A DNA stretch of 64,000 nucleotides from Micrococcaceae bacterium Sec5.1 (GTDB lineage Bacteria; Actinomycetota; Actinomycetes; Actinomycetales; Micrococcaceae): assembly GCA_039636795.1 (NCBI GenBank), contig CP143430.1, positions 434,001-498,000 of the forward strand, read 5' to 3'. How positions within the stretch are numbered: the first letter of the stretch is position 1; the number at the start of each line of letters is the position of its first letter. Under the pieces are notes generated by a model that was not told the origin of the DNA, made no database searches, and saw nothing but the letters and a program-made list of their open reading frames with translations. This document shows positions 19,783-42,026 of the stretch, piece by piece. The translations under genes and the position numbers were made by a program.

Positions 19783-21804
19783 TTACTTGTCGGTTGGGTC
19801 GGTCCGGGGAGACTGAACCCTGGGGATGCTTCCGGTCGGAGTTCCGCCGGGACAGTCGGAGTCAGGGCAGTCCTCCGCACACTCGTGCCTGGTCACCAGG
19901 TCAAATTGAACGCCCCGATGTTGTTCCACGCCCGTACGAATCGCGCGTTCAACAACGGATGTCGCCAAGCGCTTATGGAGTGACCGGGGATCACGGCGCA
20001 GGTCCTTCGTGAGGGCGAAACAGAGCAGCAGCATGACGATGACGAACGGTAGCGCGGCAACAATCGTGACTCTTTGAAGTCCGGCCAAAGCCTCGGATGG
20101 TTCGTCGCCGCCAGCCAGGAGCATGACCGCTGCTACTGCACCGGTAAGGCTTCCCCAGAAGATCACTACTCCACGCCGGGGGTGTTCTGCTCCGTTGGAG
20201 CTGAGCGATCCCATGACAATGGAGGCTGCGTCTGCACCAGTGATGAAGAAGATTGCCACCAGCACCATGGCCAGCACGATCACCGCTGCTGTGGCCCAGC
20301 CGGGCATGCCAAGGTTCTTGACGAGATCGAAGAGTGCGCCGTCGAAATTGACGGAGGGCACACCGTTGGTCATGGTCACCAAACCGGGTGTGCCGGCCTT
20401 GTCAGCTTCCTGCTGGACGTGGAAGGCAGCTCCACCGAAGATGCCGAACCAGATAACGCTGACGATGCTTGGCACCAGCAGAACGCCGGTGACGAACTGA
20501 CGGATGGTTCGGCCGCGGCTGATGCGTGCAATGAACATGCCGACGAAGGGCGTCCAGGAGATCCACCAGGCCCAGTAGAAAATGGTCCAGCTGGTCATCC
20601 AGCTACGCAGTGCTTCGTCGCCGACCGCCTCTGTCCGGGACGACATTTCTGCCAGGTCCCGGGCGTAGTCGCCGATGGCTGAAGGGATCAGGTTGAGGAT
20701 GAACAAGGTGGGGCCGGCAATAAACACGATGAGTGCCAGGACGACTGCCAGCACCATGTTGATGTTGGAAAGCCACTGGATGCCGCGGCTGATGCCGGAG
20801 ACTGCTGACGCGACGAAGCAGAAGGTGAGGATGGCTACGATCACCACGAGTACCGGGGTGCCGATCTCACCCACCCAGCCGTTGGAGGTCATGCCGCTGC
20901 CGATCTGAAGGGCACCGAGGCCCAGGGAGGCGGCGGTGCCGAACAGGGTGGCAAAGATGGCCAGGATGTTGATGAATTTCCCGAGCGGGCCTTCCACCAT
21001 CCTGATGCCGAACAGCGCCGTGAACGCTGCGGAGACCAGCTGCCTGCGACCCAAACGGTAGGTGCCGTAGGCCATGGCGATGCCCACTACTGCGTACATG
21101 GCCCATGGGTGCAGGGTCCAGTGGAAGATCGAGGTGGCCATGGCCGTCTGGATGGCAGCAGGGGTGCGGCCGTCCACAGTGCCCGGTGGTGGCGAGATGT
21201 AGTGGTAGAGCGGCTCAGCCACGCCATAGAACATGAGCCCGATGCCCATGCCGGCGGCGAACATCATCGCTACCCAGGAGACGGTACGGAATTCCGGCTT
21301 CTCGCCGTCCTTGCCAAGCGGGATGTTGCCGAACTTGCCCAGGGCGAGCCAGAGGACGAAGACGACGAACAAGGAGGCAAGAACCATGAAGAGCCAGCCG
21401 GTGTATTCCATGACCCAGTTCAGGGCGCCTTTGGAAGTTTCGGAAAGGCTGTCCCGGCCGACGAAGCCCCAGACCACGAAGGCGACGGCGATGGCGCCCG
21501 TGATTCCGAAGGTGACTTTATCCAGCGTAAGTTTCTGGTTCCGGCGGGCAGTAACTGCCTGCTCGGTCCTGGCATGGCGCAGTTCTTCAAGGATCTGTGC
21601 GTATTCCTCAGTATCCGGCAGTGTTTCTGCGCCTCCGTCCTCATCGTCGAGGACTGCGGGGTTGGTTTCCTCCGGGGAGACGCTGATGACGTCCCCGGAG
21701 TTTTCCAGGCGGTTGGTTCTATGTGATGAAGGAGTGTCGGCCAGGTTATCCGTGGCGGGCACTTCCTCGGGAGTTAGAGGCTTTAGATCACTATTTATAG
21801 CCAT
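19783..21804 (-). CDS. BCCT-family betaine/choline/carnitine transporter
   Basis: About 673 residues from the ATG at 21804 (AAAGGA 7 bp upstream); an ATG at 21849 is possible. About 80 hydrophilic residues precede twelve predicted transmembrane helices. The family signature is clear: GMGIGLMFYGVAEPLYHY and HWTLHPWAMYAVVG, with WWISWTPFVGMFIARISRGR later. The GMGIG form is associated with sodium-coupled betaine carriers such as BetP. A soluble tail of about 80 residues ends with a Cys cluster (HECAEDCPDSDCPGG), unusual for the family. Next to the dimethylglycine and choline genes, it is a good candidate for betaine or dimethylglycine uptake. Confidence 0.9.
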   Translation of the reverse strand: MAINSDLKPLTPEEVPATDNLADTPSSHRTNRLENSGDVISVSPEETNPAVLDDEDGGAETLPDTEEYAQILEELRHARTEQAVTARRNQKLTLDKVTFGITGAIAVAFVVWGFVGRDSLSETSKGALNWVMEYTGWLFMVLASLFVVFVLWLALGKFGNIPLGKDGEKPEFRTVSWVAMMFAAGMGIGLMFYGVAEPLYHYISPPPGTVDGRTPAAIQTAMATSIFHWTLHPWAMYAVVGIAMAYGTYRLGRRQLVSAAFTALFGIRMVEGPLGKFINILAIFATLFGTAASLGLGALQIGSGMTSNGWVGEIGTPVLVVIVAILTFCFVASAVSGISRGIQWLSNINMVLAVVLALIVFIAGPTLFILNLIPSAIGDYARDLAEMSSRTEAVGDEALRSWMTSWTIFYWAWWISWTPFVGMFIARISRGRTIRQFVTGVLLVPSIVSVIWFGIFGGAAFHVQQEADKAGTPGLVTMTNGVPSVNFDGALFDLVKNLGMPGWATAAVIVLAMVLVAIFFITGADAASIVMGSLSSNGAEHPRRGVVIFWGSLTGAVAAVMLLAGGDEPSEALAGLQRVTIVAALPFVIVMLLLCFALTKDLRRDPRSLHKRLATSVVERAIRTGVEQHRGVQFDLVTRHECAEDCPDSDCPGGTPTGSIPRVQSPRTDPTDK

Positions 21805-22286
21805 GAGCGGGTCCTTTGCTCGGCGAGTCATGGGCTTGGGTTTATACATGGCCCTGGAGGGTGGGAGCGGGTAGAGGGTTGGGGGCTTCGTCCGACTCCA
21901 TGACCATCATTTGTGGAGCAGTATCAAGTCGGAGCGCCTGCCCCGAATCGAGCTCACTGATGGGGCAGGCCTTGTGCATGGTGCACCTCTTTTGGTCGGC
22001 GAACGGGATTTGTGGCGCTTAGGCTTAGTCGCCTTCTTGCGTCTCGCAAGGATCAACAGTTCTCGCGTTATGCAACAGAGTGCGCCCCGTCACAGGTCAA
22101 TGTCAAGGTGTTTCTTTTCCACTTCAGGCATCTTGACACTCGCCCCGAGGCGCCTCAGGCAGTTGCGCATAGTGGTTACTGTTGCGTAAAAAGCGACATT
22201 CAAGGCGAAAAATGGGCACGCTAAGCGACGCCAGCTAGCTGTACTTAAAGGCGTGGATTACGCGGGCGGGCCCGGCGGGCATACAC
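21805..22286. promoter_or_regulatory. Upstream region of the BCCT gene with inverted IclR-like sites
   Basis: No credible gene is seen in this roughly 480-bp stretch. TTATGCAACAG (22068-22078) and CTGTTGCGTAA (22179-22189) are inverted copies with one mismatch, and TTGCGCAT (22163-22170) is a related half-site. An IclR regulator lies immediately beyond (22287-23093). These sites could mediate control of the BCCT gene, though the spacing of about 100 bp between copies is wide for one binding event. Confidence 0.5.
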
Positions 22287-23093
22287 CTAGCGGCGTCGGT
22301 AGCCCATCTTGGCGCTGATGGCCAGGCCAGCCTCGCGGAGGGCCTCTATGAGCCCTGGCTGCTCCTCGGGAGCAAAACGGAAGGCAGGGCCGGAGATACT
22401 TACTGCGGCGATGACACTGCCCATGTGGTTGAAGATAGGCACGGCCACGGCCGTCAGACCGATTTCGAACTCTTCATGGACCACCGCGTAGCCGTTCCGC
22501 GCGACGTCGAGCAGCTGCTTCTCCAGCTCCCCGCGGTTGGTGATGGTTCGGGGTGTGCGGGCTGGGAGTCCGACGGTCTTAAGGACTTGGTTCCGTTCGT
22601 CAGCTGTCAGCGCGGCCAGGAGCACTTTGCCGCTGGACGTGGCATGCAGTGGCGTCAGGCTGCCCACCCAGTCGTAGGTGGCAAGCGTTGAGGGGCCCAT
22701 GGCTTGATCCACGTTGACGGCATAGTTGGATCGAAGCACAGCAAGGTTGACAGTTTCCTTGAACTCAGCCGCGAGCGCTTCCAGTACTTCCCTTGCCTCG
22801 CGCACCACGCTCAGCCTGCCGGGGATGGATGTTGCCAGCCGGAGAATGCCGAAACCCAGCTGGTACTTGCCCCTCTCATTGTTCTGCCGGACAAGGTCGC
22901 GGTTAACCAGCGAGCCCACAAGCCTGGACACCGTGGATTTATGGACGCCCATCTCGTCAGCAATTTCACTGACACCGGCGTCGCCTTCGCGGGCGAGGAT
23001 TTCCAGGATTTGGAGTGCGCGGTCCACCGACTGGACGCCTCCGCCCTGGGCGTCTGCGTCCTTCTCGATGTCCGGATTGTTAGCTGGGGCCAT
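22287..23093 (-). CDS. IclR-family regulator (candidate betaine/C1 regulator)
   Basis: 268 residues. The N-terminal winged helix is VQSVDRALQILEILAREGDA followed by VSEIADEMGVHKSTVSRLVG (residues 40-60). The effector domain includes ETVNLAVLRSNYAVNVDQ, SLTPLHATSSGKVLLAAL and GLTAVAVPIFNHMGSVIAAV. It lies between the BCCT carrier and fdhD on the same strand as both and shares no overlap with either. Its position points to regulation of betaine uptake or of the methyl-oxidation genes. The inverted TTGCGTAA-like sites upstream of the BCCT gene are candidate targets. Confidence 0.88.
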   Translation of the reverse strand: MAPANNPDIEKDADAQGGGVQSVDRALQILEILAREGDAGVSEIADEMGVHKSTVSRLVGSLVNRDLVRQNNERGKYQLGFGILRLATSIPGRLSVVREAREVLEALAAEFKETVNLAVLRSNYAVNVDQAMGPSTLATYDWVGSLTPLHATSSGKVLLAALTADERNQVLKTVGLPARTPRTITNRGELEKQLLDVARNGYAVVHEEFEIGLTAVAVPIFNHMGSVIAAVSISGPAFRFAPEEQPGLIEALREAGLAISAKMGYRRR

Positions 23094-23221: not shown

Positions 23222-24103
23222 TCAGATCCCGACCAAAGCCTCCTCCCTGGCCACCTTGCGGGGGCGGACCAGTCTGTCACGTCCGGCGTAGACGTTGAGG
23301 CTGTGTCCGCGGCTGAAGCCAACCAGTGTCACGCCGGTCTTAGTGGCGAGGTCGGCGGCAAGGCTGGACGGCGCGCTCACTGCGGAAAGGACAGGTATGC
23401 CGGCGAGGGCCGCCTTCTGGACAAGCTCGAACGATGCCCGCCCTGAAACCTGCAGGACCAATCCCGTCAGTGGCAGCAGATCCTGGCGCAAAGCCCAGCC
23501 CACCACTTTGTCCACGGCGTTGTGGCGGCCCACGTCCTCCCGCAGACAGAGGAGTTCCGGCGTTGCGCCGTCCACCCTGAAGAGCCCGGCCGCGTGGACG
23601 CCACCGGTCCTGTCGAACACTGCCTGGGCTTCCCGGAGGCGTTCGGGCAGTTCGGCCAAGATGTCAACGGGAACCCGCAGCCCGTCCTGGGCGGGGTCGA
23701 AGTGGAGGGTCTTGCGGACGGCCTCGATGGAGTCCGTCCCACAGATGCCGCATGAGCTGGAGGTGTACACGTGGCGCATGGTGTCCGGCATTTGTACGTC
23801 TGAGCGAAGCTGGGCCTCCACCACATTGAACGTCTGCGTCCCGTCCTTCTCGCCGGCGCAAAAACGCAGGGAGATCAGCTCGGACTGGCTGCGGATGATG
23901 CCTTCGGACACCAGGAACCCGGCCACCAGGTCAAAGTCGTCTCCCGGAGTCCTCATGGTCACGGCGAAGGAGCGGCCGCCGATCCTGATTTCCAGGGGCT
24001 CTTCGGCGGCCAGGACGTCTTCCTTGAACCGCACCGGATATTCGGTACCTGTCCCGTCGAGATGGAAGCGGTGGATCTTCCGGCGCTGTGTCATCCGTGC
24101 CAT
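23222..24103 (-). CDS. fdhD: Formate dehydrogenase accessory sulphurtransferase FdhD
   Basis: About 293 residues from the ATG at 24103 (AAGG 8 bp upstream); the ATG at 24094 would overlap the moeA stop as ATGA. FdhD hands sulphur to the molybdenum cofactor of formate dehydrogenases. The required Cys-x-x-Cys loop is present as SSSCGICGTDS. Other family blocks are TPGDDFDLVAGFLVSEGII, GGVHAAGLF, CLREDVGRHNAVDKVVG and SGRASFELVQKA. It is the last gene of the unit with moeA and the formaldehyde dehydrogenase, and it serves the molybdenum oxidoreductase at 27398-29716. Confidence 0.93.
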   Translation of the reverse strand: MARMTQRRKIHRFHLDGTGTEYPVRFKEDVLAAEEPLEIRIGGRSFAVTMRTPGDDFDLVAGFLVSEGIIRSQSELISLRFCAGEKDGTQTFNVVEAQLRSDVQMPDTMRHVYTSSSCGICGTDSIEAVRKTLHFDPAQDGLRVPVDILAELPERLREAQAVFDRTGGVHAAGLFRVDGATPELLCLREDVGRHNAVDKVVGWALRQDLLPLTGLVLQVSGRASFELVQKAALAGIPVLSAVSAPSSLAADLATKTGVTLVGFSRGHSLNVYAGRDRLVRPRKVAREEALVGI

Positions 24104-25413
24104 GGTGCGTACCTTCCTGGCTGGTGTGGGAATTCGTTGGTTGCTTGCGACTGCGACCAAGCGCTTGACCAGGCGCTGGTCCAGGGCAGCGGCATGACCG
24201 GGACGGGTTCGCCTGCCTCCACTCCGTCAGGGGGAACGGCCATGAAGCCGTCGGCCCAAGCCAGCCCGCGCATCATGCCGGGGCCTGTATGTGAAGCAGG
24301 AAACGCGAGGCCGTGGACAAAGGTGCACGGAATGAGTTGTGTCCGGCCTGGGCCCGGATCAATGTCCGCCCCGGACGTAAGGTGGCCGGCTGTTTGGAAA
24401 GGACGGTTTTGGAGGGCAGCCAGCAGTGGCTCACCAATGGTCATGAGGGCCATCATGGCGGCCAGGGGGTTGCCTGGTAGGCCGATGATGAAGTGGCCGT
24501 CCGGAAGTTCAGCCAGTACCGCAGGATGCCCCGGGCGCATAGCGACGCCGTCCAGCAGTAAGCGCCCACCGAGCGCGGCCACTGCAGTGCGGAAGTGGTC
24601 GGTTCCGGATTTCCCAGTGCCGCCGGTGGTGATCGTGACATCGGGGCGCTCACCTCCGGGCGGGCCCGCAAGTGCCGATAGCCACTCATCGTACGAGTCG
24701 CCAATCCGTTGCTGGCTGCCTGGGATTCCGCCCAGCTGGGAAATCACGGCACCCAGTTGCGGGCCGAAGGTGTCGCGCACCTGCCCCGCTGCCGGCACAC
24801 CCGAGGTCACCACCTCGGAACCGGTAAGTACGACGGCGACCCGCGGCTTGCGTTGTACCTGCAGTTCGTCGTGGCCTGCTACGGCAGCAAGGGCAATGTG
24901 GGCAGGGTTGAGGAGTGTGCCGGCGGGTACGAGGACGTCGCCGGCTCGGGCTTCTTCACCGGCTGGCCGTATGTGGCGGCCGGGGAGCGTCTCGCCGGAT
25001 TTCACATCTGGTTTCAGTGAGAGCTGCAGCCCGTATCCGGCGTCGAGGACCTGTCCGCTCTCTTTCCGAAGTACCGCTACGGCACCCTCAGGGACCAGGC
25101 CTCCGGTGGCAATGACGCTGGCTTCTCCCGGCGATAGCGGCAGCCCCGCCGTCGTGATCTTCCACGGTCCTCTGCCATGAATGGCCCAGCCATCCATGGC
25201 AGAGGACGCGTAGTGCGGAAGGTCCTGCTGCGCCGTCACTTCAGTGGTCAGCATGTATCCGATCGCGTCCGCCAAGGGTACAGACGCAGACGCAAGCGGA
25301 ACAGCGCAATCGAAGGCCATCTGCCGGGCTTCAGACCACGTCGGGGCAGGCATCCGCTCGCACGGCACATGGGACGTTGGCGACGTGCCGTCGATGATTT
25401 CCTGTGCGAGCAT
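24091..25413 (-). CDS. moeA: Molybdopterin molybdenumtransferase
   Basis: 440 residues of the MoeA family, which inserts molybdate into adenylylated molybdopterin. Visible motifs are DLPHYASSAMDGWAIHG at about residue 63 and the catalytic domain VAVVLTGSEVVTSG, DVTITTGGTGKSGTDHF, and IIGLPGNPLAAMMAL. The C-terminal domain IV is recognisable but short. It lies between the formaldehyde dehydrogenase and fdhD, overlapping fdhD by a few bases. A dedicated MoeA beside a molybdenum enzyme suggests induction of cofactor supply together with the enzyme. Confidence 0.9.
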   Translation of the reverse strand: MLAQEIIDGTSPTSHVPCERMPAPTWSEARQMAFDCAVPLASASVPLADAIGYMLTTEVTAQQDLPHYASSAMDGWAIHGRGPWKITTAGLPLSPGEASVIATGGLVPEGAVAVLRKESGQVLDAGYGLQLSLKPDVKSGETLPGRHIRPAGEEARAGDVLVPAGTLLNPAHIALAAVAGHDELQVQRKPRVAVVLTGSEVVTSGVPAAGQVRDTFGPQLGAVISQLGGIPGSQQRIGDSYDEWLSALAGPPGGERPDVTITTGGTGKSGTDHFRTAVAALGGRLLLDGVAMRPGHPAVLAELPDGHFIIGLPGNPLAAMMALMTIGEPLLAALQNRPFQTAGHLTSGADIDPGPGRTQLIPCTFVHGLAFPASHTGPGMMRGLAWADGFMAVPPDGVEAGEPVPVMPLPWTSAWSSAWSQSQATNEFPHQPGRYAPWHG

Positions 25414-25442: not shown

Positions 25443-26660
25443 TTAAGCCTTCACGTAGCCGTTCGGGTTCAGTACGAACTTTGTTGCCGCTCCGGCGTCG
25501 AATTCGGCGTAGCCGCGGGGAGCGTCCTCAAGCGGGATGGCTTGGGCATTGACTGCCTTGGCGATCTGGACCTTGTCGTGGAGGATGGCCATCATCAATT
25601 GGCGGTTGTACTTCATCACCGGGCATTGGCCCGTGGTGAAGGACAAGGACTTTGCCCAGCCGGTGCCCAGCGAGAGCGACAGGGAACCGTGCTTGGCTGC
25701 TTCATCGATTCCGCCCGGATCGCCGGTGACGTAGAGGCCCGGGATGCCCAGGGAACCACCGGCTGCGGTGATGTCCATGAGGGAGTTCAGCACGGTGGCC
25801 GGAGCCTCGTGCGAGGCGTCCCGTCCGTGGCCGCGGGCTTCGAAGCCAACGGCGTCCACGCCGCAATCCACTTCCGGCACCCCGAGGATCTGCAGGATCT
25901 GCTCCTTCGGGTCTCCGTTGGAGACATTGACGGTTTCGCAGCCGAACGAGCGCGCTTGTGCCAGTCGGTCCTCGTTCATGTCGCCCACAATCACGACGGC
26001 GGCGCCAAGCAACTGGGCGCCGACGGCGGCAGCGAGACCCACAGGGCCGGCACCGGCGACGTACACCGTGGACCCTACGCCAACCCCGGCAGTAACGGCG
26101 CCGTGGAATCCGGTGGGGAAGATGTCCGAGAGCATGGTCAGGTCCATGATCTTTTCCAGGGCCTGGTCGCGGTCCGGGAAGCGCAGCAGGTTCCAGTCGG
26201 CGTAGGGAACCAGCACGTACTCGGCCTGTCCACCCACCCAACCGCCCATGTCCACATAGCCGTAAGCGCTGCCGGGGCGGTCAGGGTTGACGTTGAGGCA
26301 GATGCCGGTCTTCTGCTCTTTGCAGTTCCGGCAGCGGCCACAGGAAATGTTGAACGGCACCGAGACGATGTCGCCCACTTTGATGAACTCGACGTCGGGA
26401 CCCACCTCCACCACCTCGCCGGTGATTTCGTGGCCGAGGACCAGGTCCTGCGGGGCTGTGGTGCGGCCACGGACCATGTGCTGATCGGAACCGCAGATGT
26501 TGGTTGTTACAGTGCGGAGGATCGCGCCATGCGGTACCTTCCGGCCGACGTTGGCCGGGTTGACGCCCGGTCCGTCCTTGAGTTCGAACGTCGGGTAGTC
26601 AGTGTTGATGATTTCGACTACGCCGGGTTCCTTGTAGGCGACTGCTCGGTTTCCAGACAT
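25443..26660 (-). CDS. fdhA: Glutathione-independent formaldehyde dehydrogenase (zinc-type)
   Basis: About 405 residues from an ATG with AGGAGG 7 bp upstream. It is a zinc alcohol dehydrogenase family member: catalytic zinc Cys in NICGSDQHMV, GHEITGEVVEVG, and structural zinc cysteines in CGRCRNCKEQKTGIC. The NAD-binding Gly motif is in VYVAGAGPVGLAAAVGAQLL. The long insertion VGFEARGHGRDASHEAPATV is characteristic of the Pseudomonas putida-type formaldehyde dismutase/dehydrogenase branch with tightly bound NAD. It converts formaldehyde to formate without a thiol cofactor. It is co-directional with the DUF336 gene upstream and moeA-fdhD downstream. Confidence 0.9.
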   Translation of the reverse strand: MSGNRAVAYKEPGVVEIINTDYPTFELKDGPGVNPANVGRKVPHGAILRTVTTNICGSDQHMVRGRTTAPQDLVLGHEITGEVVEVGPDVEFIKVGDIVSVPFNISCGRCRNCKEQKTGICLNVNPDRPGSAYGYVDMGGWVGGQAEYVLVPYADWNLLRFPDRDQALEKIMDLTMLSDIFPTGFHGAVTAGVGVGSTVYVAGAGPVGLAAAVGAQLLGAAVVIVGDMNEDRLAQARSFGCETVNVSNGDPKEQILQILGVPEVDCGVDAVGFEARGHGRDASHEAPATVLNSLMDITAAGGSLGIPGLYVTGDPGGIDEAAKHGSLSLSLGTGWAKSLSFTTGQCPVMKYNRQLMMAILHDKVQIAKAVNAQAIPLEDAPRGYAEFDAGAATKFVLNPNGYVKA

Positions 26661-26701
26661 GGACACTCCTCCTGGGGCGGGTTGTGGTACGGAAATTGGA
26701 T

Positions 26702-26791: not shown

Positions 26792-26822
26792 TCTTGCCTA
26801 GTGTTTTTGACTAATGTTTTGG

Positions 26823-27245
26823 CTAAAGCCCAGCCGCGCCCTGGAGCTGGACTGCTGCTCCTGCGGATGCGATCGTGTGGTCGTTCTCCACAGTGCTGCC
26901 GCTGACGCCGATCGCACCGATCACAGTGCCGTCCTCGCTGCGCAGGGGGATGCCTCCCGGGAAGGTGATGAGTCCTCCGTTGGACACCTCGATGTTGTAG
27001 AGGGGTCCTCCAGGCTGCGAAAGCTCGCCGATTGCCCCCGTTGGCATGTCGAAGAAGCGGGCAGTGCGTGCCTTCTTGATGGAAATATCGATGCTGCCCA
27101 GCCATGCCCCGTCCATGCGGGTGAAGGCCTTGAGGTTGCCGCCGGCATCCACTACGGCGATGTTCATGGCGGTCGCGGTTTCGCTGGCAGCGTCGCGGGC
27201 TGCGGCAAGCACGGCATCTGCTTGGACTTGGGTGATGTCAGACAT
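26823..27245 (-). CDS. GlcG/HbpS-family (DUF336) cytosolic protein
   Basis: 140 residues from the ATG at 27245 (CGGAGAAAC upstream); an upstream in-frame start at 27287 lacks a ribosome site. One full GlcG/HbpS domain is seen: [40 protein letters not shown], then [20 protein letters not shown] and [14 protein letters not shown]. No signal peptide is present. Family members are often found with flavin or cofactor-dependent catabolic enzymes, and the biochemical role is unsettled. It is the first gene after the GntR-type palindrome at 27323-27357, followed by fdhA, moeA and fdhD. Confidence 0.85.
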
Positions 27246-27322
27246 TGTTTCTCCGTTGATTGATGTCTTCTTGACGAGATGGCCCACTGGAGGGTTCGGA
27301 AGTCTGGTTACGCGTTGGCCAT

Positions 27323-29716: not shown

Positions 29717-30510
29717 GCGATCTTCCCTTCAAATCTGGGTAGGCGGCTGAGGTCGTTGAAGCTGTAGACGTGGATGCCGGCAAACAGCGGATGGCCGTCG
29801 AGGGCCTGATGAACGTCCCGGATCAGGCCGGAGCTGTCGTAGCGCAGCACGTCACCACCGCGCAGGAGTGCCTTGGCCATTCCTGTGCCGCGGGCCAGCT
29901 TGAGTGAGCGTCCCACGCCCAATCGTGCACCCATGGCCAGCAGCTTCTGCACGGAGACCGGCCCGGGAACGCCCACCCACACGGGAATCCGGGAACCGAC
30001 CCGGTGCAGCTCCTGCAGGTAGGAGCTGATGGATTCAGCCGAAAAGCACATTTGCGTGACCATGGAGGACGCCATGGGTGACTTGCCGGCCAGGCTGCTC
30101 TGTAACTGTTCTGCGCTCAGTTGTGGGTGGCCTTCCGGGTAACCGGCGATGCCAAGGGAGAAATCTTCCGAGAAAGCCTTGATGTCCTCCATCAGATGGC
30201 CACTCCAGGAATACGGACCTGCAGGCGCACTGCGGTCCCCGGCAATGAGGAAAAGCTCCCGGACACCCTCATCGCGCAATTGATGCAGGAACAGGTGCAG
30301 CTCTGCCTGGCTGGCGATGCTCCGCGCTGCCAGGTGCGGGACCACGTGGTAGCCCAGCCGGGCAAGCTCAATCGACGCAGCAACCGTCCTGGCCGGACCG
30401 TGGTGCGGCAGGCAGGTCACGCTGACCTTCCCCGGCGCCTCATAAGCGGGAGGCAGTTGCCGGGCAAGGTCAGCGGAGGGACTGACCTCCAGGCGGATCG
30501 GCGTTTCCAT
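29671..30510 (-). CDS. Methylenetetrahydrofolate reductase-like (MetF family) protein
   Basis: 279 residues of the MetF TIM-barrel fold. Recognisable blocks are RLEVSPS near residue 7 (position of the catalytic Glu in FEFFPP of MetF), HLAARSIASQAEL, FLIAGDRSAPAGPYSW (flavin-contacting Gly-Asp) and GIAGYPEGHPQ (matching AYPEVHP). It is divergent from housekeeping MetF and slightly shorter. It is two bases from the folD stop and overlaps the molybdoenzyme start. It could reduce 5,10-methylene-THF formed by dimethylglycine oxidase, or run the reverse reaction. Activity is inferred. Confidence 0.8.
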   Translation of the reverse strand: METPIRLEVSPSADLARQLPPAYEAPGKVSVTCLPHHGPARTVAASIELARLGYHVVPHLAARSIASQAELHLFLHQLRDEGVRELFLIAGDRSAPAGPYSWSGHLMEDIKAFSEDFSLGIAGYPEGHPQLSAEQLQSSLAGKSPMASSMVTQMCFSAESISSYLQELHRVGSRIPVWVGVPGPVSVQKLLAMGARLGVGRSLKLARGTGMAKALLRGGDVLRYDSSGLIRDVHQALDGHPLFAGIHVYSFNDLSRLPRFEGKIAWLPKPPVKTSTSQS

Positions 30511-31403: not shown

Positions 31404-32026
31404 GCGAGGATCCTTTCGCGGACGCGCTTGACGAGGGAATCGGCCGCGAGGACCACCTTCTCCTCAAGGCCGTCGGTCTGTTCTGCCAAGCGCGAGCGGG
31501 CGTCGCCGTCTTTAATGGCCACCACATTGATGTCGATGTTGACACGGGCGGTTGTGGCGGCGGCACGGGCAGCATCTGCTGCTGCCGCGACGTCGCTGAT
31601 GACATTGGGGTTGGCCATGTCAAAGAGTTCCGTGGCGAGTTCCACCACCTCACCGGCAAGCTTTATCAGCTGAGCCGGTGTATGGGCCGCCTGGACCAGG
31701 GCATCCTGGATGCCGGCAGCGCGCATGGCCTTGAGTTCCTCGGTCCCGGACGGGAGTTTGTACGAATCAATAACTCGTTGGAAGGCGTGCTCATCGGCGT
31801 CCGCGAGGCGCAGCGCTTCGACAATCAAATGGTCGGCAGCGCTGGTGATGCGGGCAACGGGTTCTGCGTGCTGCGCATACTTTTCACCCGTGGTGTACCT
31901 GGCCACCATGGCCACCAAGGCGGCGCCCTGGGCAGCGTGAAGGGCGGCTGCTGCACCTCCGCCGGGGGTGGGCTGCCGTGAAGCGAGCCGGGCAAGGTAG
32001 TCGTTGATGGTTTCTGAACTGATCAT
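31400..32026 (-). CDS. fchA: Methenyltetrahydrofolate cyclohydrolase (FTCD_C family)
   Basis: 208 residues of the formiminotransferase-cyclodeaminase C-terminal family, which in bacteria hydrolyses 5,10-methenyl-THF to 10-formyl-THF. Family features are the N-terminal TINDYLARLASRQPTPGGGA, with the Gly-rich turn and invariant Pro, and AAQGAALVAMVARYT, then helices with AAGIQDALVQAAHTPAQLIK and VARAA-like NVISDVAAAADAARAA. The start follows AGGAAG. It overlaps folD by 4 bp, and the folD product has lost its own cyclohydrolase Lys, so the two together replace one bifunctional enzyme. Confidence 0.9.
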   Translation of the reverse strand: MISSETINDYLARLASRQPTPGGGAAAALHAAQGAALVAMVARYTTGEKYAQHAEPVARITSAADHLIVEALRLADADEHAFQRVIDSYKLPSGTEELKAMRAAGIQDALVQAAHTPAQLIKLAGEVVELATELFDMANPNVISDVAAAADAARAAATTARVNIDINVVAIKDGDARSRLAEQTDGLEEKVVLAADSLVKRVRERILA

Positions 32027-32163: not shown

Positions 32164-35620
<3,457 letters not shown>

Positions 35621-35632
35621 GTCTCCTCCTTT

Positions 35633-35666
35633 AGATATATTCTTGGGTCCCGTACTGATATATTAG
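35633..35666. promoter_or_regulatory. Divergent purU/GntR promoter with GntR-type operator
   Basis: TGATATATTAG (35656-35666) and the related AGATATATTCT (35633-35643) lie between purU (start 35620) and the GntR gene (start 35741). The exact reverse complement of the first site, CTAATATATCA, recurs at 36484-36494 on the other side of the regulator gene. This placement suggests autoregulation together with control of the purU-dmg-folate unit. Confidence 0.75.
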
Positions 35667-35740: not shown

Positions 35741-36421
35741 GTGGCATTTGGAACTCTGGCAATCTCGGACGATACCAGCAGGAAATCCTTGGCCGACGTC
35801 GCGTATGAGCGTTTGCGCGACCGGCTCCTGATGCTGGACATCAAACCCGGGGACCTCCTCAACGATGACCAGTTGGCGAAGGATCTGGGGATCGGGCGCA
35901 CTCCGGTGCGCGAAGCCTTGAAGCGGTTGGAACTGGACCGCCTGGTGGTCACCTATCCGCGCCGTGGAACATTTGCCACCCGCGTTGACGTGACGGACCT
36001 GGCCTTTATTTCAGAGATCCGCACGCAACTCGAGCCACTGGCTGCAGCACGCGCGGCACGGGTGGCTTCTCCGGCCACGAGGGAGCATCTGCGGAACGTC
36101 ATGAAGGAGGTGGAGGCCTTTGATGTGGCCGCCGCCTCGGTTGTGGAGACCCTGCGACTGGATGCCAGCGTCCATCAGGGCATCTATGCGGCCGCGGCAA
36201 ATCCTCATCTCGAGGACGTCCTGATCCGCTATGACAACCTGGCAACCCGAATTTGGTGCATGGTCCTGGATAGGCTGCCGGACCTTGAGCATCACGTGCG
36301 CGAACACCTGGACCTCCTGCGCGCGGTCATTGACGGTGATGAGGAAAAAGCGGCGGAGTTGGCAAAGGCCCACGTCACAGGCTTTGAGCACGCCGTCCGC
36401 ACGGCCCTCTTCGCCGCGTAG
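35741..36421 (+). CDS. GntR-family (FCD) regulator of the C1 island
   Basis: 226 residues from the GTG at 35741, which has GGAAAGGG upstream; the frame to 35669 overlaps the operator. The N-terminal winged helix is LADVAYERLRDRLLMLDIKP and LAKDLGIGRTPVREALKRLE. The C-terminal all-helical FCD domain has the metal/ligand residues expected of the group: ISEIRTQLEPLAA, DASVHQGIYAAAANPHLEDV and HLDLLRAVIDGDEEKAAEL. FCD regulators bind small carboxylates, so dimethylglycine, sarcosine or a glyoxylate-like acid would be possible effectors. Matching palindromes flank the gene on both sides. Confidence 0.9.
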   Translation: MAFGTLAISDDTSRKSLADVAYERLRDRLLMLDIKPGDLLNDDQLAKDLGIGRTPVREALKRLELDRLVVTYPRRGTFATRVDVTDLAFISEIRTQLEPLAAARAARVASPATREHLRNVMKEVEAFDVAAASVVETLRLDASVHQGIYAAAANPHLEDVLIRYDNLATRIWCMVLDRLPDLEHHVREHLDLLRAVIDGDEEKAAELAKAHVTGFEHAVRTALFAA

Positions 36422-36483: not shown

Positions 36484-36506
36484 CTAATATATCACCCGGA
36501 TATCAG
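36484..36506. promoter_or_regulatory. GntR-type operator before pdxS
   Basis: CTAATATATCA (36484-36494) is the exact reverse complement of the site at 35656-35666 and is followed by CGGATATCAG (36497-36506), a second degenerate copy. It lies about 80 bp before the pdxS start and 60 bp after the GntR stop. Confidence 0.7.
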
Positions 36507-36583: not shown

Positions 36584-37498
36584 GTGACCTTTACACCACG
36601 CCCTTTCGAACACATCACGCTTACTGGCTCCGGCCGTGTAAAGCGGGGCATGGCGGAGATGCTCAAGGGCGGCGTCATCATGGACGTCGTTAACGTCGAG
36701 CAGGCCCGAATCGCCGAGGACGCCGGTGCCGTCGCCGTCATGGCACTCGAGCGCGTACCCGCCGATATCCGCGCCCAGGGTGGCGTGTCCCGCATGTCAG
36801 ATCCGGACATGATCGATGCGATCATCGCCGCCGTGTCCATCCCGGTCATGGCCAAGGCCCGCATCGGCCACTTCGTCGAAGCCCAGGTCCTGCAGTCCCT
36901 CGGCGTGGACTACATCGACGAGTCCGAGGTCCTGACCCCGGCCGACTACGTGAACCACATCGACAAGTGGAACTTCACCGTTCCCTTCGTCTGCGGCGCC
37001 ACCAACCTCGGTGAGGCCCTGCGCCGCATCAACGAAGGCGCGGCGATGATCCGTTCCAAGGGCGAAGCCGGCACCGGCGATGTTTCCAACGCCACAGGCC
37101 ACATGCGCAAGATCCGTTCCGAAATCGCCAAACTCGCAGCCCTTCCCGAAGACGAGCTGTATGTCGCGGCCAAGGAGCTGCAGGCCCCGTACGAGCTGGT
37201 CAAGGAAGTTGCCGCCACGGGCAAGCTCCCGGTGGTGCTGTTCACCGCTGGTGGCATCGCAACCCCGGCAGATGCTGCGATGATGATGCAGCTTGGCGCT
37301 GATGGCGTGTTCGTTGGTTCGGGTATCTTCAAGTCCGGCAACCCCGCAGAGCGCGCTGCCGCCGTCGTGAAGGCAACCGCCTATTACGATGATCCCGATG
37401 TCATAGCGAAGGTCTCCCGCGGACTGGGCGAAGCGATGGTCGGCATCAACGTCGATGAAATCCCGCAGCCCCACCGCCTCGCCGAGCGCGGCTGGTAA
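36584..37498 (+). CDS. pdxS: Pyridoxal 5'-phosphate synthase lyase subunit PdxS
   Basis: 304 residues from a GTG preceded by TTGGAG; a TTG 12 bp upstream is less likely. PdxS builds PLP from ribose 5-phosphate, glyceraldehyde 3-phosphate and ammonia. The two active-site lysines are in [17 protein letters not shown] and the later [15 protein letters not shown], and the phosphate loop is [20 protein letters not shown]. The glutaminase PdxT, normally adjacent, is absent from this window. Its position between the GntR regulator and mscR, with a GntR-type operator upstream, suggests PLP supply tied to C1 or glycine metabolism. Confidence 0.93.
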
Positions 37499-37549: not shown

Positions 37550-38653
37550 GTGGTTCACAAAGTAAAAGCTGTCATCGCCAAGGAAAAGAACGCTCCGGTC
37601 ACTTTGGAAACCATCCTCGTGCCGGATCCAGGGCCGGGTGAGGCGTTGGTGGATATCCTCACCTGCGGGGTGTGCCACACCGATCTGCACTACCAGCAGG
37701 GTGGTATTTCCGACGATTTCCCGTTCCTTCTCGGCCACGAAGCCACAGGCGTGGTCAGCGCGGTGGGCCCGGATGTCACGGAAGTCGCCCCCGGCGACAG
37801 GGTCATCCTGAACTGGCGTGCGGTGTGCGGTCAATGCCGTGCCTGCGCAAAGGGCCAGCCGCAGTACTGCTTCAACACCCACAACGCCACCCAGAAGATG
37901 ACGCTGGAAGATGGCACTGAGCTTTCGCCGGCACTGGGAATCGGTGCCTTCGCCGAGAAGACCCTCGTGGCTGCGGGTCAATGCACCAAGGTGGACGACT
38001 CGGTGGATCCCGCCGCAGTAGGTTTGCTGGGATGCGGCGTGATGGCGGGCATCGGTGCGGCGATCAATACCGGTGAGGTCAAGCGTGGCGAGTCCGTGGC
38101 CGTCATCGGGTGCGGCGGCGTCGGCATTGCCGCGATTGCCGGTGCCAAGCTGGCCGGTGCCACCACCATCATTGCCGTGGACATCGATGCAAACAAGGTG
38201 GACATGGCCAAGTCCCTGGGAGCCACCCACGGAGTGAACTCCAGCCTCGAGGATCCGATAGAAGCTATCCGGGCCCTGACGGGAGGCAACGGCGCCGACC
38301 TGGTGATTGACGCCGTCGGACGTCCCGAAACGTACAAGCAGGCTTTCTACGCCCGCGATCTCGCAGGCCGCGTTGTCCTGGTTGGCGTTCCTTCGCCCAC
38401 CGCCACACTGGAGCTGCCGCTGCTGGATGTCTTCGGCCGCGGCGGATCCTTGAAGTCCTCCTGGTACGGCGACTGCCTGCCTTCCCGCGACTTCCCGATG
38501 CTGGTGGAGCACTACAAGCAAGGCAACCTGAACCTGGACGCCCTCGTGACAGAACGCATCACCATCGACCAGGTGGAGGAAGCCTTCGCCCGGATGCAGG
38601 AAGGCAAAGTCCTTCGCTCCGTGGTGGAAATCGAGCCGGCGGTGGCGCTCTGA
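37550..38653 (+). CDS. mscR: S-(hydroxymethyl)mycothiol dehydrogenase (MscR)
   Basis: 367 residues from the GTG at 37550 (AGAAAGGAA upstream). It is a class III zinc alcohol dehydrogenase that oxidises the spontaneous adduct of formaldehyde with mycothiol. Zinc ligands are in [11 protein letters not shown] and GHEATGVV, with the structural zinc cysteines [15 protein letters not shown]. The NAD loop is [20 protein letters not shown]. The subgroup is recognisable from [15 protein letters not shown] and [14 protein letters not shown]. Its stop overlaps the following hydrolase start (TGATG), the same pairing I recall for the mycobacterial mscR locus. It is the thiol-dependent formaldehyde route. 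Confidence 0.93.
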
Positions 38654-39276
38654 TGGCCGTCACCGTACAGAACCGGGTCACCTCCGGAACGTTTTCGCTC
38701 GACGGCGGCACCTGGGACGTGGACAACAACGTCTGGATTGTTGGTGACGAGCAGGAATGCGTCATCATCGATGCCCCGCACGATGCCCAGGCCATCATCG
38801 AGCAGGTGCAGGGCCGCAAAGTCCTGGCCATCCTGCTGACCCACGCCCACAACGACCATATTGGTGCCGTGCGGGAGGTTGCTGACGCCGTTCAAGCACC
38901 CATCTACCTGCATCCCGAGGACTTGGTGTTGTGGGAGCAGGTCTATCCGGACACCACACCGGACAAGTACCTCAGCGACGGCGACGTTTTCACCGTTGCG
39001 GGAGCCGAATTGCGGGCCATCCACACGCCGGGCCACTCGCCCGGATCCACGTGCTTCCTGCTTGAGGAACAGGACACGGTCTTCACGGGAGACACCCTGT
39101 TCAACGGTGGTCCGGGAGCAACCGGGCGATCCTACAGCGATTACCCCACCATCCTGACATCCATCCGGGAACGGCTCCTGACACTGCCGGCCAACACGTT
39201 GGTGCGCACCGGGCATGGGGACAACACCACCATCGGAGCCGAGCGCGAGACGCTCGCCCTTCTAAAGCAGGACTAG
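38653..39276 (+). CDS. Metallo-beta-lactamase-fold hydrolase (likely S-formylmycothiol hydrolase)
   Basis: 207 residues of the glyoxalase II-like metallo-beta-lactamase family. The metal-binding motif is HAHNDHIGA, with further ligands in HTPGHSPGSTCF, FTGDTLFNGG and RTGHGDNTTIG. Its start overlaps the mscR stop by one base, so the two are translationally coupled. MscR would yield S-formylmycothiol, and a thioester hydrolase of this fold is the natural next step, giving formate and free mycothiol. That assignment is inferred from gene pairing, not from a substrate-specific motif. Confidence 0.88.
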   Translation: MAVTVQNRVTSGTFSLDGGTWDVDNNVWIVGDEQECVIIDAPHDAQAIIEQVQGRKVLAILLTHAHNDHIGAVREVADAVQAPIYLHPEDLVLWEQVYPDTTPDKYLSDGDVFTVAGAELRAIHTPGHSPGSTCFLLEEQDTVFTGDTLFNGGPGATGRSYSDYPTILTSIRERLLTLPANTLVRTGHGDNTTIGAERETLALLKQD

Positions 39277-39283
39277 AGTTCGG

Positions 39284-40576
39284 CTACCTGAGTCCCGCAC
39301 TGTGCGCCAAAGCGATGGCCTCAGTGCGGGACCGGACGTCGAGCTTCCGGAAGAGGTTCCGGATATGAAATTTCACAGTATTTTCGCTGACGTTGAGTTC
39401 AGCTGCGATGGCCCGGTTACGTTGTCCGGCCGCCAATAATTGAAGGACTTCCAGCTCCCTTGCCGCGAGGCCCCACGCCGCGACATCCCCTGCTGGCGCT
39501 GATGGCGGATCCAGCGGCAGCACCACCGAGATGTCGGCTCCCCAGCCCTGCATGACGTCCAGGCTCATCCTGCCGTTAACGGCCTGCACGCGTTGGCGCA
39601 AGCGTTCAATGTTCGGGGCTTCGGGGGATAGCTCGCCCCGGCCATCGTCACGAACATTGATGAGCAGGTTCTCGCCGTCGCAGTCCCACTGTGCCCGGAC
39701 ACGATGCACGTCGGGTTGCTCGGCGATGGCCAGGACGAGGCCTCGAACCACAGCGCGGGCGGCGTGGGCTACTTCGCCCGGCAATGCCCTGCCGTTCGCA
39801 GGCGGTTCAATGAACTGGATATCGATGTTGCTGAAGTGCATCAGCGGCCGAAGGTCCTCGCGAAGCCTTTCGAACGCCGTGCTGACCGGTTCCTCCACAA
39901 GATCGCTGGTGCGGTCGTTCAAAGTGCGCAGGCTGATCAGGGCCTTGACGGTCATGTCGGTCACGGCTGTACGGGCCGCGTGGTCGTCCAGGGAGTTGGA
40001 TCTCAAGGCCGCGAGCACAGTTTCCAAGGTGGTGGAGTGCTGATCCACCAACTCGGCAGTTACGCGGATCCGCTCCGCTGATGCGGCGCGGGACTCCAGA
40101 AGGTACGACGGCGGCGCGTCAGAGACCTTCTCCTGGATACGCGCCGCTGTGAGCCGCCAAAGGTAGGAGAGGACACGCTCCGCATCTTCTGCCAAGCCTG
40201 CTGCAGGATCCGTGAGGACCAGGAGGGCGTTACTCGGTGCGTAGCCCAAGGCCAGTACATCCCGCTCCGTCCCCCCGACAACAGCCTTGCCCCGCCACGG
40301 TCCCTCGTCTGGAATCGCGGCACGTACACGGTCCAGTTCCGGAATGGAAACCCTGCTGACAATGCTTTCCTCGCCCGCCTTCTTTTGCGGCCGGCCCGTG
40401 CAGTCCTCGGTGAAAATCACCAAGGCGCTGGACTTGATGAACGGGGCCAGCGCACCACGCAGGCTCTCTGCAATACGCATCAGGGGTGCCTGCGCTATTT
40501 CCGCGACGGCGTCCAGAAGCTGCCACTGAAGGGCCCCGGTATCCGGGCGGCGTTTGCTATCGATCAGCTGGCTCAT
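39284..40576 (-). CDS. One-piece regulator: degenerate histidine-kinase core fused to LuxR DNA-binding domain
   Basis: 430 residues. An N-terminal GAF-like region (about 20-150) with no clear motif is followed by a HisKA_3-like helix. Where kinases have E-L-H-D, this protein reads AELVDQHSTTL, so the phospho-acceptor His is Val177. The ATPase part keeps a G1-like box (NVRDDGRGEL) and GWGADISVVLP, but the N-box Asn is not recognisable. A LuxR helix-turn-helix ends the protein (LAARELEVLQLLAAGQRNRA, ENTVKFHIRNLFRKLDV). It is convergent with the hydrolase and divergent from hxlB-hxlA. It probably senses directly without phosphotransfer. Formaldehyde or a derived adduct is a hypothesis. Confidence 0.85.
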   Translation of the reverse strand: MSQLIDSKRRPDTGALQWQLLDAVAEIAQAPLMRIAESLRGALAPFIKSSALVIFTEDCTGRPQKKAGEESIVSRVSIPELDRVRAAIPDEGPWRGKAVVGGTERDVLALGYAPSNALLVLTDPAAGLAEDAERVLSYLWRLTAARIQEKVSDAPPSYLLESRAASAERIRVTAELVDQHSTTLETVLAALRSNSLDDHAARTAVTDMTVKALISLRTLNDRTSDLVEEPVSTAFERLREDLRPLMHFSNIDIQFIEPPANGRALPGEVAHAARAVVRGLVLAIAEQPDVHRVRAQWDCDGENLLINVRDDGRGELSPEAPNIERLRQRVQAVNGRMSLDVMQGWGADISVVLPLDPPSAPAGDVAAWGLAARELEVLQLLAAGQRNRAIAAELNVSENTVKFHIRNLFRKLDVRSRTEAIALAHSAGLR

Positions 40577-40610
40577 GGATGCAGCCTAAACGAAGATGAG
40601 TCACGTTAAC

Positions 40611-40627
40611 TACCCAAAAGGGTGGTA
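40611..40627. promoter_or_regulatory. Candidate operator in the divergent hxlB promoter
   Basis: TACCCAAAAGGGTGGTA contains the perfect palindrome ACCCAAAAGGGT-type core (ACCC/GGGT at 40612-40615 and 40620-40623) and outer TACC/GGTA arms. It lies 35 bp from the regulator start and 98 bp from the hxlB start, a position suited to the divergent LuxR-type regulator. Confidence 0.5.
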
Positions 40628-40724
40628 TGAACTGCTCGTTTTCGGCGTTCCCCCTACCCGAACTAGCCGGAAGACTTATCTATAGGCCCGAAAGGCTTGA
40701 GCACCTATCCACGAAGGAGTGAAT

Positions 40725-41315
40725 GTGAACGTCACCGCAGAAACAGCAACTGCCACGAGTGCGGATGTAGCCGGCAATGTATCCCTGATCCTCGGCGAAG
40801 TCGCTGACACTACCTCGGGCATTGACTACGCTCAGTTGGCCCATCTTGCGGACAGGATCAAGGGGGCAGGCCGCGTATTCCTTGCAGGAGCCGGGCGCAG
40901 CGGCCTGGTCCTCAGGATGGCGGCCATGAGGCTGATGCACCTGGGACTGACGGTCCACGTCGCCGGTGACACCACCACCCCAGCCATCAGTTCCGGAGAC
41001 CTCCTGGTGGTCGCGTCCGGTTCAGGCACGACGTCCGGTGTGGTCAAAGCTGCCCAAACCGCACTTGAAGCAGGCGCACAGGTTGCTGCCATCACCACCA
41101 ATGCCTCCTCGCCCTTGGCGGGGCTGGCCGACGCTTTGGTGGTTATCCCGGCTGCCCAAAAGACGGATCACGGTTCCAACATTTCGCGCCAGTATTCCGG
41201 CAGCCTCTTCGAGCAGGCGCTGTTCCTCGCTACAGAGTCGGTTTTCCAGACACTCTGGGATGCCGCCGACGAACCCGCTGAACAGCTCTGGCTGCGTCAC
41301 GCCAACCTCGAATAG
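40725..41315 (+). CDS. hxlB: 6-phospho-3-hexuloisomerase
   Basis: 196 residues from the GTG at 40725, which has AAGGAG 5 bp upstream. A single SIS domain covers the protein: RVFLAGAGRSGLVLRMAAMR, LMHLGLTVHVAGDTTTPAI, LLVVASGSGTTSGVVKAAQ, with AAITTNASSPLAGLADALVV and the C-terminal SLFEQALFLATESVFQTLWD. It isomerises hexulose 6-phosphate to fructose 6-phosphate, the second step of the ribulose-monophosphate pathway. It is followed 87 bp downstream by hxlA on the same strand, and its promoter is shared with the divergent fused regulator. Confidence 0.94.
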   Translation: MNVTAETATATSADVAGNVSLILGEVADTTSGIDYAQLAHLADRIKGAGRVFLAGAGRSGLVLRMAAMRLMHLGLTVHVAGDTTTPAISSGDLLVVASGSGTTSGVVKAAQTALEAGAQVAAITTNASSPLAGLADALVVIPAAQKTDHGSNISRQYSGSLFEQALFLATESVFQTLWDAADEPAEQLWLRHANLE

Positions 41316-41402
41316 GCCCCCACTGACTTAGCTGCGCAGTTGAGCTAGCCGCTTGGGGCCGACTCCAACTCACTAACAACCCACAAAGAAAGTAAGAACA
41401 CT

Positions 41403-42026
41403 ATGAAACTTCAAGTCGCACTGGACCTCCTCACCACCGAGGCCGCCCTGGAACTGGCCGGCAAAGTAGCCGAGCACGTTGACATCATCGAGCTGGGCAC
41501 CCCGCTGATCAAGGCAGAGGGCCTCTCCGCAGTGACCGCGATCAAGGAAGCACACCCCACCAAGATCGTCTTCGCCGACATGAAGACGATGGACGCTGGA
41601 GAACTCGAAGCCGACATCGCCTTCAAGGCCGGCGCCGACCTCGTCTCAGTGCTCGGAACGGCAGACGACTCCACCATTGCAGGTGCCGTCAAGGCAGCCC
41701 AGACCCACAACAAGGGCATCGTGGTGGACCTGATCGGCGTTGCTGACAAGGTTTCCCGTGCAAAGGAAGCCCGCGCTCTCGGGGCCAAGTTCATCGAGTT
41801 CCACGCTGGCCTGGACGAGCAAGCCCAGCCTGGCTTCGACCTCCGCGGTCTCCTTAACGCCGGTGAAGAAGCCCGTGTACCGTTCTCGGTTGCAGGTGGC
41901 GTCAACCTGTCCACCATCCAGGCCGTGCAGTTGGCCGGTGCCGACGTAGCCGTGGCCGGCAGCGCCATCTACAGTGCCCTTGATCCGGAACTGGCTGCCA
42001 AGGAACTCAAAGCCGCTATCCAGTAA
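41403..42026 (+). CDS. hxlA: 3-hexulose-6-phosphate synthase
   Basis: 207 residues of the orotidine-decarboxylase-like barrel family. It condenses formaldehyde with ribulose 5-phosphate. The catalytic D-x-K-x-x-D motif is D59-M-K61-T-M-D64 in IVFADMKTMDAG. The N-terminal LQVALDLL and the phosphate loop PFSVAGGVNLSTIQAV with AVAGSAIYSAL are also typical. With hxlB it forms a two-gene ribulose-monophosphate module for assimilating or detoxifying formaldehyde. A strong terminator follows at once. Confidence 0.95.
   Translation: MKLQVALDLLTTEAALELAGKVAEHVDIIELGTPLIKAEGLSAVTAIKEAHPTKIVFADMKTMDAGELEADIAFKAGADLVSVLGTADDSTIAGAVKAAQTHNKGIVVDLIGVADKVSRAKEARALGAKFIEFHAGLDEQAQPGFDLRGLLNAGEEARVPFSVAGGVNLSTIQAVQLAGADVAVAGSAIYSALDPELAAKELKAAIQ

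Follow-up and report, generated by a model that had tools for sequence, protein, structure and literature searches.

Between 19.8 and 42.0 kb of the 64-kb window analysed here (the whole stretch G000:C1:434001-498000, from the 5.43-Mb single-contig genome of Micrococcaceae bacterium Sec5.1), genes for dimethylglycine oxidase (DMGO) and for several outlets of methyl-derived one-carbon (C1) units lie side by side, raising the question of whether these routes are controlled together. The initial annotation of this DNA had described folate, cofactor-free, thiol and ribulose monophosphate (RuMP) routes gathered around one GntR regulator; all the genes that it claimed were located by NCBIfam, Pfam and PDB matches, and, judged from their sequences, the several outlets are real. 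The best overall explanation, to which we assign a probability of roughly two in three, is that the region forms the dimethylglycine section of an island for the catabolism of choline and glycine-betaine methyl groups, with a predicted GntR regulon, and that the RuMP genes hxlBA are wired separately.

The genes fall into a minus-strand run (purU, dmg, fchA, folD, a metF-like gene, an FdhF/YdeP-type gene, an HbpS-like gene, fdhA, a moeA-like gene, fdhD, an IclR gene and a BCCT carrier gene) and a plus-strand run (GntR/FCD, pdxS, mscR and a metallo-beta-lactamase-fold hydrolase), the latter followed by a minus-strand LuxR-type gene and by hxlB and hxlA on the plus strand (Table 1).

A candidate GntR box and its predicted regulon

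The evidence for joint control comes from a short conserved element. Alignment of 70 purU-GntR intergenic stretches, from which the box was derived, gave the conserved string CTAATATATCAG, which also stands before pdxS and before glyA-sox, and CTRATATATCAG is a 12-bp palindrome if up to one mismatch is allowed. The 11-mer CTAATATATCA has three exact sites in the genome, and these precede purU-dmg, pdxS-mscR-hydrolase and glyA-soxBDAG-sdaA-purU, i.e. a shared palindromic candidate box of the kind looked for in a GntR/FCD regulon lies before the target units. With up to one mismatch there are seven sites in the genome versus two for the reversed control pattern, the shuffle expectation for the 64-kb window being 0.03. 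All three promoters have TTGAC plus a TATAC- or CATAC-type element 8-13 bases before the box, and a position downstream of promoter elements is that predicted for a repressor site. In a further scan of 106 stretches (2.13 Mb), chosen around DMGO and some of them overlapping, the box with up to one mismatch has 149 sites, whereas 40 permutations of it average 2.6 (at most 14); 146 of the 149 fall no further than 300 bp from a predicted gene start, for the most part that of GntR/PurU, PdxS, GlyA, MetF/GntR2, BCCT or formate dehydrogenase.

The third exact site belongs to a cluster at approximately C1:5043934-5052823, in which GlyA, SoxB, SoxD, SoxA, SdaA and PurU score above curated cut-offs and SoxG just under its own (125 of 144 bits). 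The product of the adjoining GntR gene is 59% identical to the window GntR, one GntR gene standing beside the dmg unit and one beside the sox unit; we infer that the box is bound by the GntR protein or by both paralogues. Because the box occurs at these three promoters, the predicted regulon would comprise dimethylglycine and sarcosine demethylation together with the folate and mycothiol routes. Consistent with the initial annotation, a scan of 38 window proteins, a subset of the open reading frames, turned up neither a glycine betaine demethylase nor a sarcosine oxidase. A single gbcA-like glycine betaine monooxygenase gene is found at C1:2868042, with gbcB-like, LysR and transporter genes as neighbours; a gbcA-like relative in locus L006 scores 386 bits against the 670-bit GbcA cut-off. 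Relatives (L018:6439-7179, L019:14020-14814 and similar) have a third GntR-like gene, its product approximately 60% identical to the sox-side GntR, which is divergent from metF, fdh or BCCT genes with the same box between; this gene is missing from the window.

MscR of the window is the sole copy in the genome at E≤1e-120 and lies outside a clade (100/97 support) of four stand-alone copies from the same genus, which suggests that it is not the usual Paenarthrobacter copy; it groups next to copies adjoining a second type of DMGO, in a tree where many forks are weak. In a different setting, the mscR copy of L100 has the box, with one mismatch, in its own promoter. It is predicted that mscR has been captured here by the GntR-box unit. 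The adjoining pdxS is one of three copies, the others being at G000:C1:2384605-2385480 (L136) and G000:C1:3387467-3388345 (L137), with proteins 98-99% and DNA 94-96% identical; one copy neighbours a succinate-semialdehyde-type dehydrogenase gene together with a GntR-like gene, and one is near a gene that we take to be yebC-like. Since their DNA is as alike as, or more alike than, that of the window and L014 (93%), gene conversion or strong constraint is possible.

hxlBA and the DMGO neighbourhood in relatives

By contrast with purU-dmg and pdxS-mscR, the hxlBA pair was not preceded by the GntR box in the window scan, and it has a regulator gene of its own. A LuxR-type gene is present in 34 of 40 hxlA-positive and none of five hxlA-negative genomes; 29 of those 34 have it no further than 1 kb from hxlA, under 11 genus labels. 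The encoded protein has no MarR/DUF24 winged helix; its helix-turn-helix (HTH) is of the LuxR/NarL type, and the hxlBA neighbour is thus not an HxlR. In the predicted structure an HATPase_c fold precedes the HTH, with low Foldseek TM-scores for the whole model (approximately 0.3) and no clear N-box visible by eye in the alignment; C59 and C299 are invariant. An N-terminal GAF domain was considered and set aside, as it came from predicted secondary structure by eye only and the fold matches listed all concern the ATPase domain. The palindrome between the LuxR-type gene and hxlB has its sole exact site in the genome there, and the LuxR-type protein would regulate hxlBA via this element. A single operon, or a single regulator, spanning all 22 kb was rejected in view of the missing box before hxlBA and of its own regulator; the single GntR regulator initially envisaged thus keeps purU-dmg and pdxS-mscR-hydrolase but loses hxlBA, and the layered formaldehyde management proposed at that time is right in outline, with two control layers instead of one.

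The conservation of this arrangement was compared across the best 80 of 360 DMGO loci, many of which run into contig ends, with every match of 38% identity or more in the retrieved flanks counted. PurU is present in 79, GntR in 69, FchA in 61, FolD in 60, formate dehydrogenase in 47 (some being 53-58% paralogues), MoeA in 43, FdhA and BCCT each in 35, GbcA in 28, SoxA in 23, PdxS and MetF-like proteins each in 14, HxlB in 11 and MscR in six. The gene order of the window is shared, within these 80, only by L014 (Arthrobacter sp. NtRootA1). In five of the 80 (L006, L011, L023, L064 and L078), and in L094, LysR-gbcAB takes the place that mscR-hydrolase has in the window, flanked by pdxS and LuxR-hxlBA.

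In a sample of 197 Micrococcaceae genomes, hxlA occurs in 40 and DMGO (E≤1e-150) in 97, the latter in 33 of the 40 hxlA-positive versus 64 of the 157 hxlA-negative genomes (Fisher P 2e-6, kinship ignored). Proximity within 25 kb was found for hxlA and DMGO in eight of 33 genomes with both (0.61 expected), for hxlA and mscR in eight of 39 (0.65 expected) and for DMGO and mscR in nine of 33 (0.70 expected; two of the nine, in G004 and G153, involve DMGO-like proteins of only 38-45% identity), whereas the control gcvP is this close to hxlA in one of 39. The hxlA-DMGO cases have at least four gene orders, e.g. GntR-DMGO-PurU-FDH-HxlA-HxlB-LuxR-MscR-hydrolase-IclR in L090 and L091, of another genus, where mscR is next to the LuxR gene, and HxlA-HxlB-LuxR-GntR-PurU-DMGO in L086. 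Plain random juxtaposition, which would have spoken against the initial annotation, is unsupported given the co-location relative to expectation, the box relative to its permutations and the gcvP control. The neighbours are associated beyond chance but facultatively, in a minority of genomes. Most genomes with both genes keep them apart, and the dmg-folate core of the gathering has already been published (PMC5023230).

Proposed explanation and its alternatives

On the explanation that we favour, DMGO would strip a methyl group from dimethylglycine, and FolD/FchA, PurU and the FdhF-type formate dehydrogenase would, from their families and gene order, take methylene-tetrahydrofolate (methylene-THF) to formate and on to CO2. 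Free formaldehyde, arising from sarcosine oxidase and glycine betaine monooxygenase encoded elsewhere in the genome, would be oxidised by FdhA and by MscR with its hydrolase. The GntR/FCD protein, probably a repressor released by a catabolite, would bind CTRATATATCAG just 3' of the TTGAC/CATAC-type promoters, and via the three boxes dimethylglycine and sarcosine demethylation would increase jointly with the mycothiol outlet and with the pyridoxal phosphate (PLP) supply needed by GlyA. The hxlBA pair would be a neighbouring, separately wired module at which the divergently encoded LuxR-type protein acts on its own palindrome, plausibly in response to formaldehyde.

Several points weigh against this explanation. 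The GntR regulon is a prediction from sequence; four further one-mismatch box sites in the genome lie outside the promoter assignment of the three exact ones; and the 149 sites are not independent, since the promoters are related and the stretches, picked for their DMGO genes, overlap in part and have a common ancestry; the cleaner evidence is therefore the genome-wide count. As the box precedes purU alone, the reach of the unit to fdhF and fdhA is presumed, and an inverted repeat in the HbpS-fdhA gap could terminate the transcript or divide it in two. The LuxR-hxlB palindrome is not enriched genome-wide when one mismatch is allowed (seven matches versus 31 for the reversed pattern). In 25 of 33 genomes hxlA and DMGO are separated by over 25 kb or lie on different contigs; the chance figures assume independent genomes (the Fisher value likewise ignoring kinship), and all hxlA-DMGO cases carry one of two genus labels. 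In the mscR tree, only seven of 24 inner branches are strongly supported.

Some of these points would suit an unlikely alternative in which mscR and hxlBA are accidental neighbours at a catabolic hot spot, the functional unit is limited to purU-dmg-fchA-folD-fdh, and the AT-rich box is no operator but a sequence lying close to promoters. Among the best 80 loci mscR-hydrolase adjoins GntR-pdxS only here and in L014, LysR-gbcAB occupies its place in relatives, the modules are apart in most genomes, and an AT-rich string is expected between genes at 62% GC; yet permuted patterns matched in composition average 2.6 sites versus the 149 of the box, all three exact genome sites precede dimethylglycine or sarcosine units, the second placement of mscR (L100) also bears the box, and the association recurs in several gene orders with the control near chance. 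Less probable still is a methylotrophy island that sends the methyl carbon mainly into RuMP fixation. The recurrence of hxlBA near DMGO would fit this, as would the use of RuMP enzymes by Arthrobacter P1 growing on choline, reportedly described by Levering and others, which our literature search did not find. Hps/Hpi do occur in C1 islands of Arthrobacter methylamine users (PMC5023230), but according to the same paper Hps plus Hpi alone are no sign of methylotrophy, and since the genome has a single hxlA and the neighbours scanned include no other gene of the RuMP cycle, hxlBA as such a sign was rejected.

A separate question concerns the short MetF-like protein, which scores only 56 of 294 bits against classical MetF (TIGR00676), below the cut-off, and belongs to the wider Pfam family only; it was rejected as the ordinary MetF of the methionine pathway, another high-scoring MetF being encoded at C1:3419856. 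Its sole MetF-like paralogue in the genome (42% identical; L142:7795-8580) is at the end of a gcvP-gcvT-gcvH-glyA-sdaA-lipA-like cluster, and that both copies adjoin enzymes making methylene-THF argues for a role at the methylene-THF pool, either direction being conceivable. Alternatively, in schemes such as those for chloromethane and lignin O-demethylation, methyl-THF is fed in via MetF, and the folate branch here might likewise serve methyl-THF from another demethylase as well as DMGO. The family retains E8, D92 and the YPEGHP motif, and the closest solved relative, 7xg9 (98 bits), is presumably the MetF of a lignin-methyl degrader; however, the glycine-cleavage-type cluster of the paralogue yields methylene-THF, not methyl-THF, and a look through the five GCV_T proteins of the genome, identified in part, gave no O-demethylase, making this alternative doubtful.

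Returning to the predicted GntR regulon with a separately wired hxlBA, a bolder and tentative proposal is that two C1 control layers lie side by side in Micrococcaceae. A catabolite-sensing GntR regulon would cover dimethylglycine and sarcosine demethylation with the folate, PLP and mycothiol functions, while a one-chain, formaldehyde-sensing LuxR-type protein (kinase-like ATP-binding fold, C59, C299) might open the RuMP route only when formaldehyde escapes, mscR being a movable part that has here been connected to the GntR layer.

Gene content and comparison with known systems

Gene calls were judged by NCBIfam equivalog cut-offs, Pfam domains and PDB matches, with script-derived starts. Curated NCBIfam cut-offs were passed by FdhA, MscR, HxlA, HxlB, PurU, FdhD and the FdhF/YdeP family, whereas FolD, FchA, the MoeA-like and MetF-like proteins and BCCT as a betaine uptake carrier are below equivalog cut-offs and Pfam-based only. 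Genes beyond those of the initial annotation are the IclR, HbpS-like and LuxR-type genes (the last divergent from hxlBA), pdxS between GntR and mscR, and the genes for choline oxidase and a betaine-aldehyde dehydrogenase (BADH)-type enzyme.

Table 1. Positions of genes and candidate sites within the window, with the matches on which each assignment is based.
Feature	Position	Strand	Basis
BCCT-family carrier (betaine/choline/carnitine type)	19783..21849	-	PF02028 575 bits; TIGR00842 493 bits, above cut-off; betaine_BCCT 525 bits, below 650 cut-off
IclR-type regulator	22287..23093	-	PF01614, PF09339
FdhD sulfurtransferase for formate dehydrogenase	23222..24094	-	NF001943 330 bits, above cut-off
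MoeA-like molybdenum insertase	24091..25275	-	three MoeA Pfam domains above cut-off; NCBIfam MoeA models below
FdhA, glutathione-independent formaldehyde dehydrogenase	25443..26660	-	TIGR02819 750 bits vs cut-off 637; PDB 4jlw 590, 1kol 578 bits
HbpS-like protein	26823..27287	-	PF03928 133 bits
FdhF/YdeP-type molybdenum formate dehydrogenase (putative), no ferredoxin domain called	27398..29716	-	TIGR01701 955 bits, above cut-off
Short MetF-like protein	29671..30510	-	PF02219 41.7 bits vs 24-bit cut-off; best PDB match 7xg9 98 bits
FolD-type methylene-THF dehydrogenase/cyclohydrolase	30513..31391	-	PF00763, PF02882 above cut-off
FchA-type methenyl-THF cyclohydrolase	31400..32026	-	PF04961 176 bits; NF045657 149 of 275 bits
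Dimethylglycine oxidase (DMGO)	32164..34656	-	PDB 1pj5 1711 bits over all 830 residues
PurU formyl-THF deformylase	34706..35620	-	TIGR00655 322 bits, above cut-off
Candidate GntR box CTAATATATCA, purU-GntR divergent promoter	35656..35666	-	one of three exact genome sites
GntR/FCD regulator, start uncertain (35669 or 35741)	35741..36421	+	PF00392, PF07729 above cut-off
Candidate GntR box CTAATATATCA, pdxS-mscR promoter	36484..36494	+	second exact site
PdxS, PLP synthase lyase subunit, start uncertain	~36584..37498	+	NF003215 525 bits, above cut-off
MscR, S-(hydroxymethyl)mycothiol dehydrogenase	37550..38653	+	TIGR03451 662 bits vs cut-off 513
Metallo-beta-lactamase-fold hydrolase adjoining mscR	38653..39276	+	PF00753 109 bits; substrate inferred from position
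LuxR/NarL-type, putative hxlBA regulator; predicted histidine-kinase-like ATPase fold before HTH	39284..40576	-	PF00196; structure model and fold match
Conserved palindrome CTACCC-N4-GGGTRGT between LuxR and HxlB	40610..40626	+	columns conserved in 39 aligned intergenic stretches
HxlB, 6-phospho-3-hexuloisomerase	40719..41315	+	TIGR03127 236 bits vs cut-off 160
HxlA, 3-hexulose-6-phosphate synthase	41403..42026	+	TIGR03128 252 bits vs cut-off 200; PDB 3ajx 341 bits
Choline oxidase, beyond the span of the initial annotation	58609..60249	-	PDB 2jbv 1176 bits over 543 residues
BADH-type dehydrogenase	60250..61761	-	TIGR01804 616 bits, below 669 equivalog cut-off

The window DMGO shares 97-98% identity with records of Paenarthrobacter and Arthrobacter, so that the host is closely related to these, and has the PF01266, PF16350, PF01571 and PF08669 domains, with DAO, FAO_M and GCV_T in a full-length match (1pj5 residues 1-830). 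His-225 and Tyr-259, which are reportedly named in the title of a paper on this enzyme, are both identical to those of the Arthrobacter globiformis enzyme in the 1pj5 alignment, counted by eye. The window DMGO belongs to this known family and would demethylate dimethylglycine with methylene-THF as product. In many Arthrobacter and Pseudarthrobacter loci (L031, L032, L033, L037, L038, L039, L046, L047 and L079) two DMGO genes occur within 10 kb, approximately 92% and 67% identical to that of the window.

The formate dehydrogenase missed the TIGR01591 cut-off (248 of 666 bits); its alignment retains the Cys-His and Arg of the E. coli FDH-H active site, where we take the Cys/Sec-His pair and the Arg to have their usual catalytic roles, and formate is its putative substrate. 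The HbpS-fdhA gap (26660-26823) holds, read by eye, a long inverted repeat (CTGTCCAATTGCCC ... GGGCAATTGGACAG) that may end or attenuate the upstream transcript. Beside the choline oxidase gene, at 56566-58155, lies the gene of an amino-acid permease of the urea-carboxylase type (534 bits, under its cut-off), which may carry choline or betaine, and on the left side, at 11558-14279, gene starts resemble, by eye, thiolase plus CoA-transferase subunits. The scanned genes have GC contents of 60.8-65.7% (window 62.2%); with no compositional signal, a recent alien island was rejected on this ground.

The organisation of dmg and sox genes in Arthrobacter spp. is said to have been treated by Meskys et al. 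in 2001, and mycothiol-dependent formaldehyde oxidation by MscR has reportedly been studied in Corynebacterium glutamicum. The window resembles the mycothiol system in its MscR family and adjacent hydrolase, but differs in that mscR is preceded by pdxS and by a box shared with dimethylglycine and sarcosine genes. That dmg-folate clusters are known in Arthrobacter, as initially stated, is borne out by the C1 cluster of Arthrobacter sp. 31Y (genes 2855-2863: dmg/folD2/mch/purU/formaldehyde dehydrogenase/Mo-oxidoreductase; PMC5023230), although in the available text its aminomethyltransferase is not named DMGO, Hps/Hpi are under other gene numbers (2720-2732), and the cluster is unlinked to mscR, hxlAB, pdxS or a shared operator. 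In the available text on Arthrobacter sp. Rue61a (PMC3534580), a DMGO 87% like the A. globiformis enzyme, the glyA-soxBDAG-sdaA-purU order and a choline oxidase in the same locus-tag region are likenesses, but neither the shared box nor a link to mscR/hxlAB is described. The dmg/folate/Mo-oxidoreductase core and the sox order are thus already known from these two papers.

New predictions are the shared box and regulon, the capture of mscR by the box and the kinase-like LuxR partner of hxlBA; our search of the open-access literature, subscription papers being outside its scope, found no shared operator tying mscR or hxlAB to dimethylglycine genes and no paper joining a LuxR-type regulator with hexulose phosphate synthase. 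In the corrected picture of the island, a common sequence links the folate route to the mycothiol route but leaves out the RuMP route. If it is true, three short DNA sites would explain the joint rise of methyl-stripping and formaldehyde clean-up in a soil actinobacterium, giving a compact test case with one regulator, three promoters and clear inducers, and the regulator of hxlBA would represent a type of formaldehyde-responsive factor distinct from HxlR and FrmR. The Bacillus subtilis HxlR-hxlAB system (PMC7835342) is alike in having a dedicated regulator adjoining hxlAB, with possible cysteine-based formaldehyde sensing. By contrast, HxlR is a MarR/DUF24 protein with Cys11 and Lys13 on one helix, whereas the window protein has a LuxR/NarL HTH after a predicted kinase-like ATPase fold, and its formaldehyde sensing is putative.

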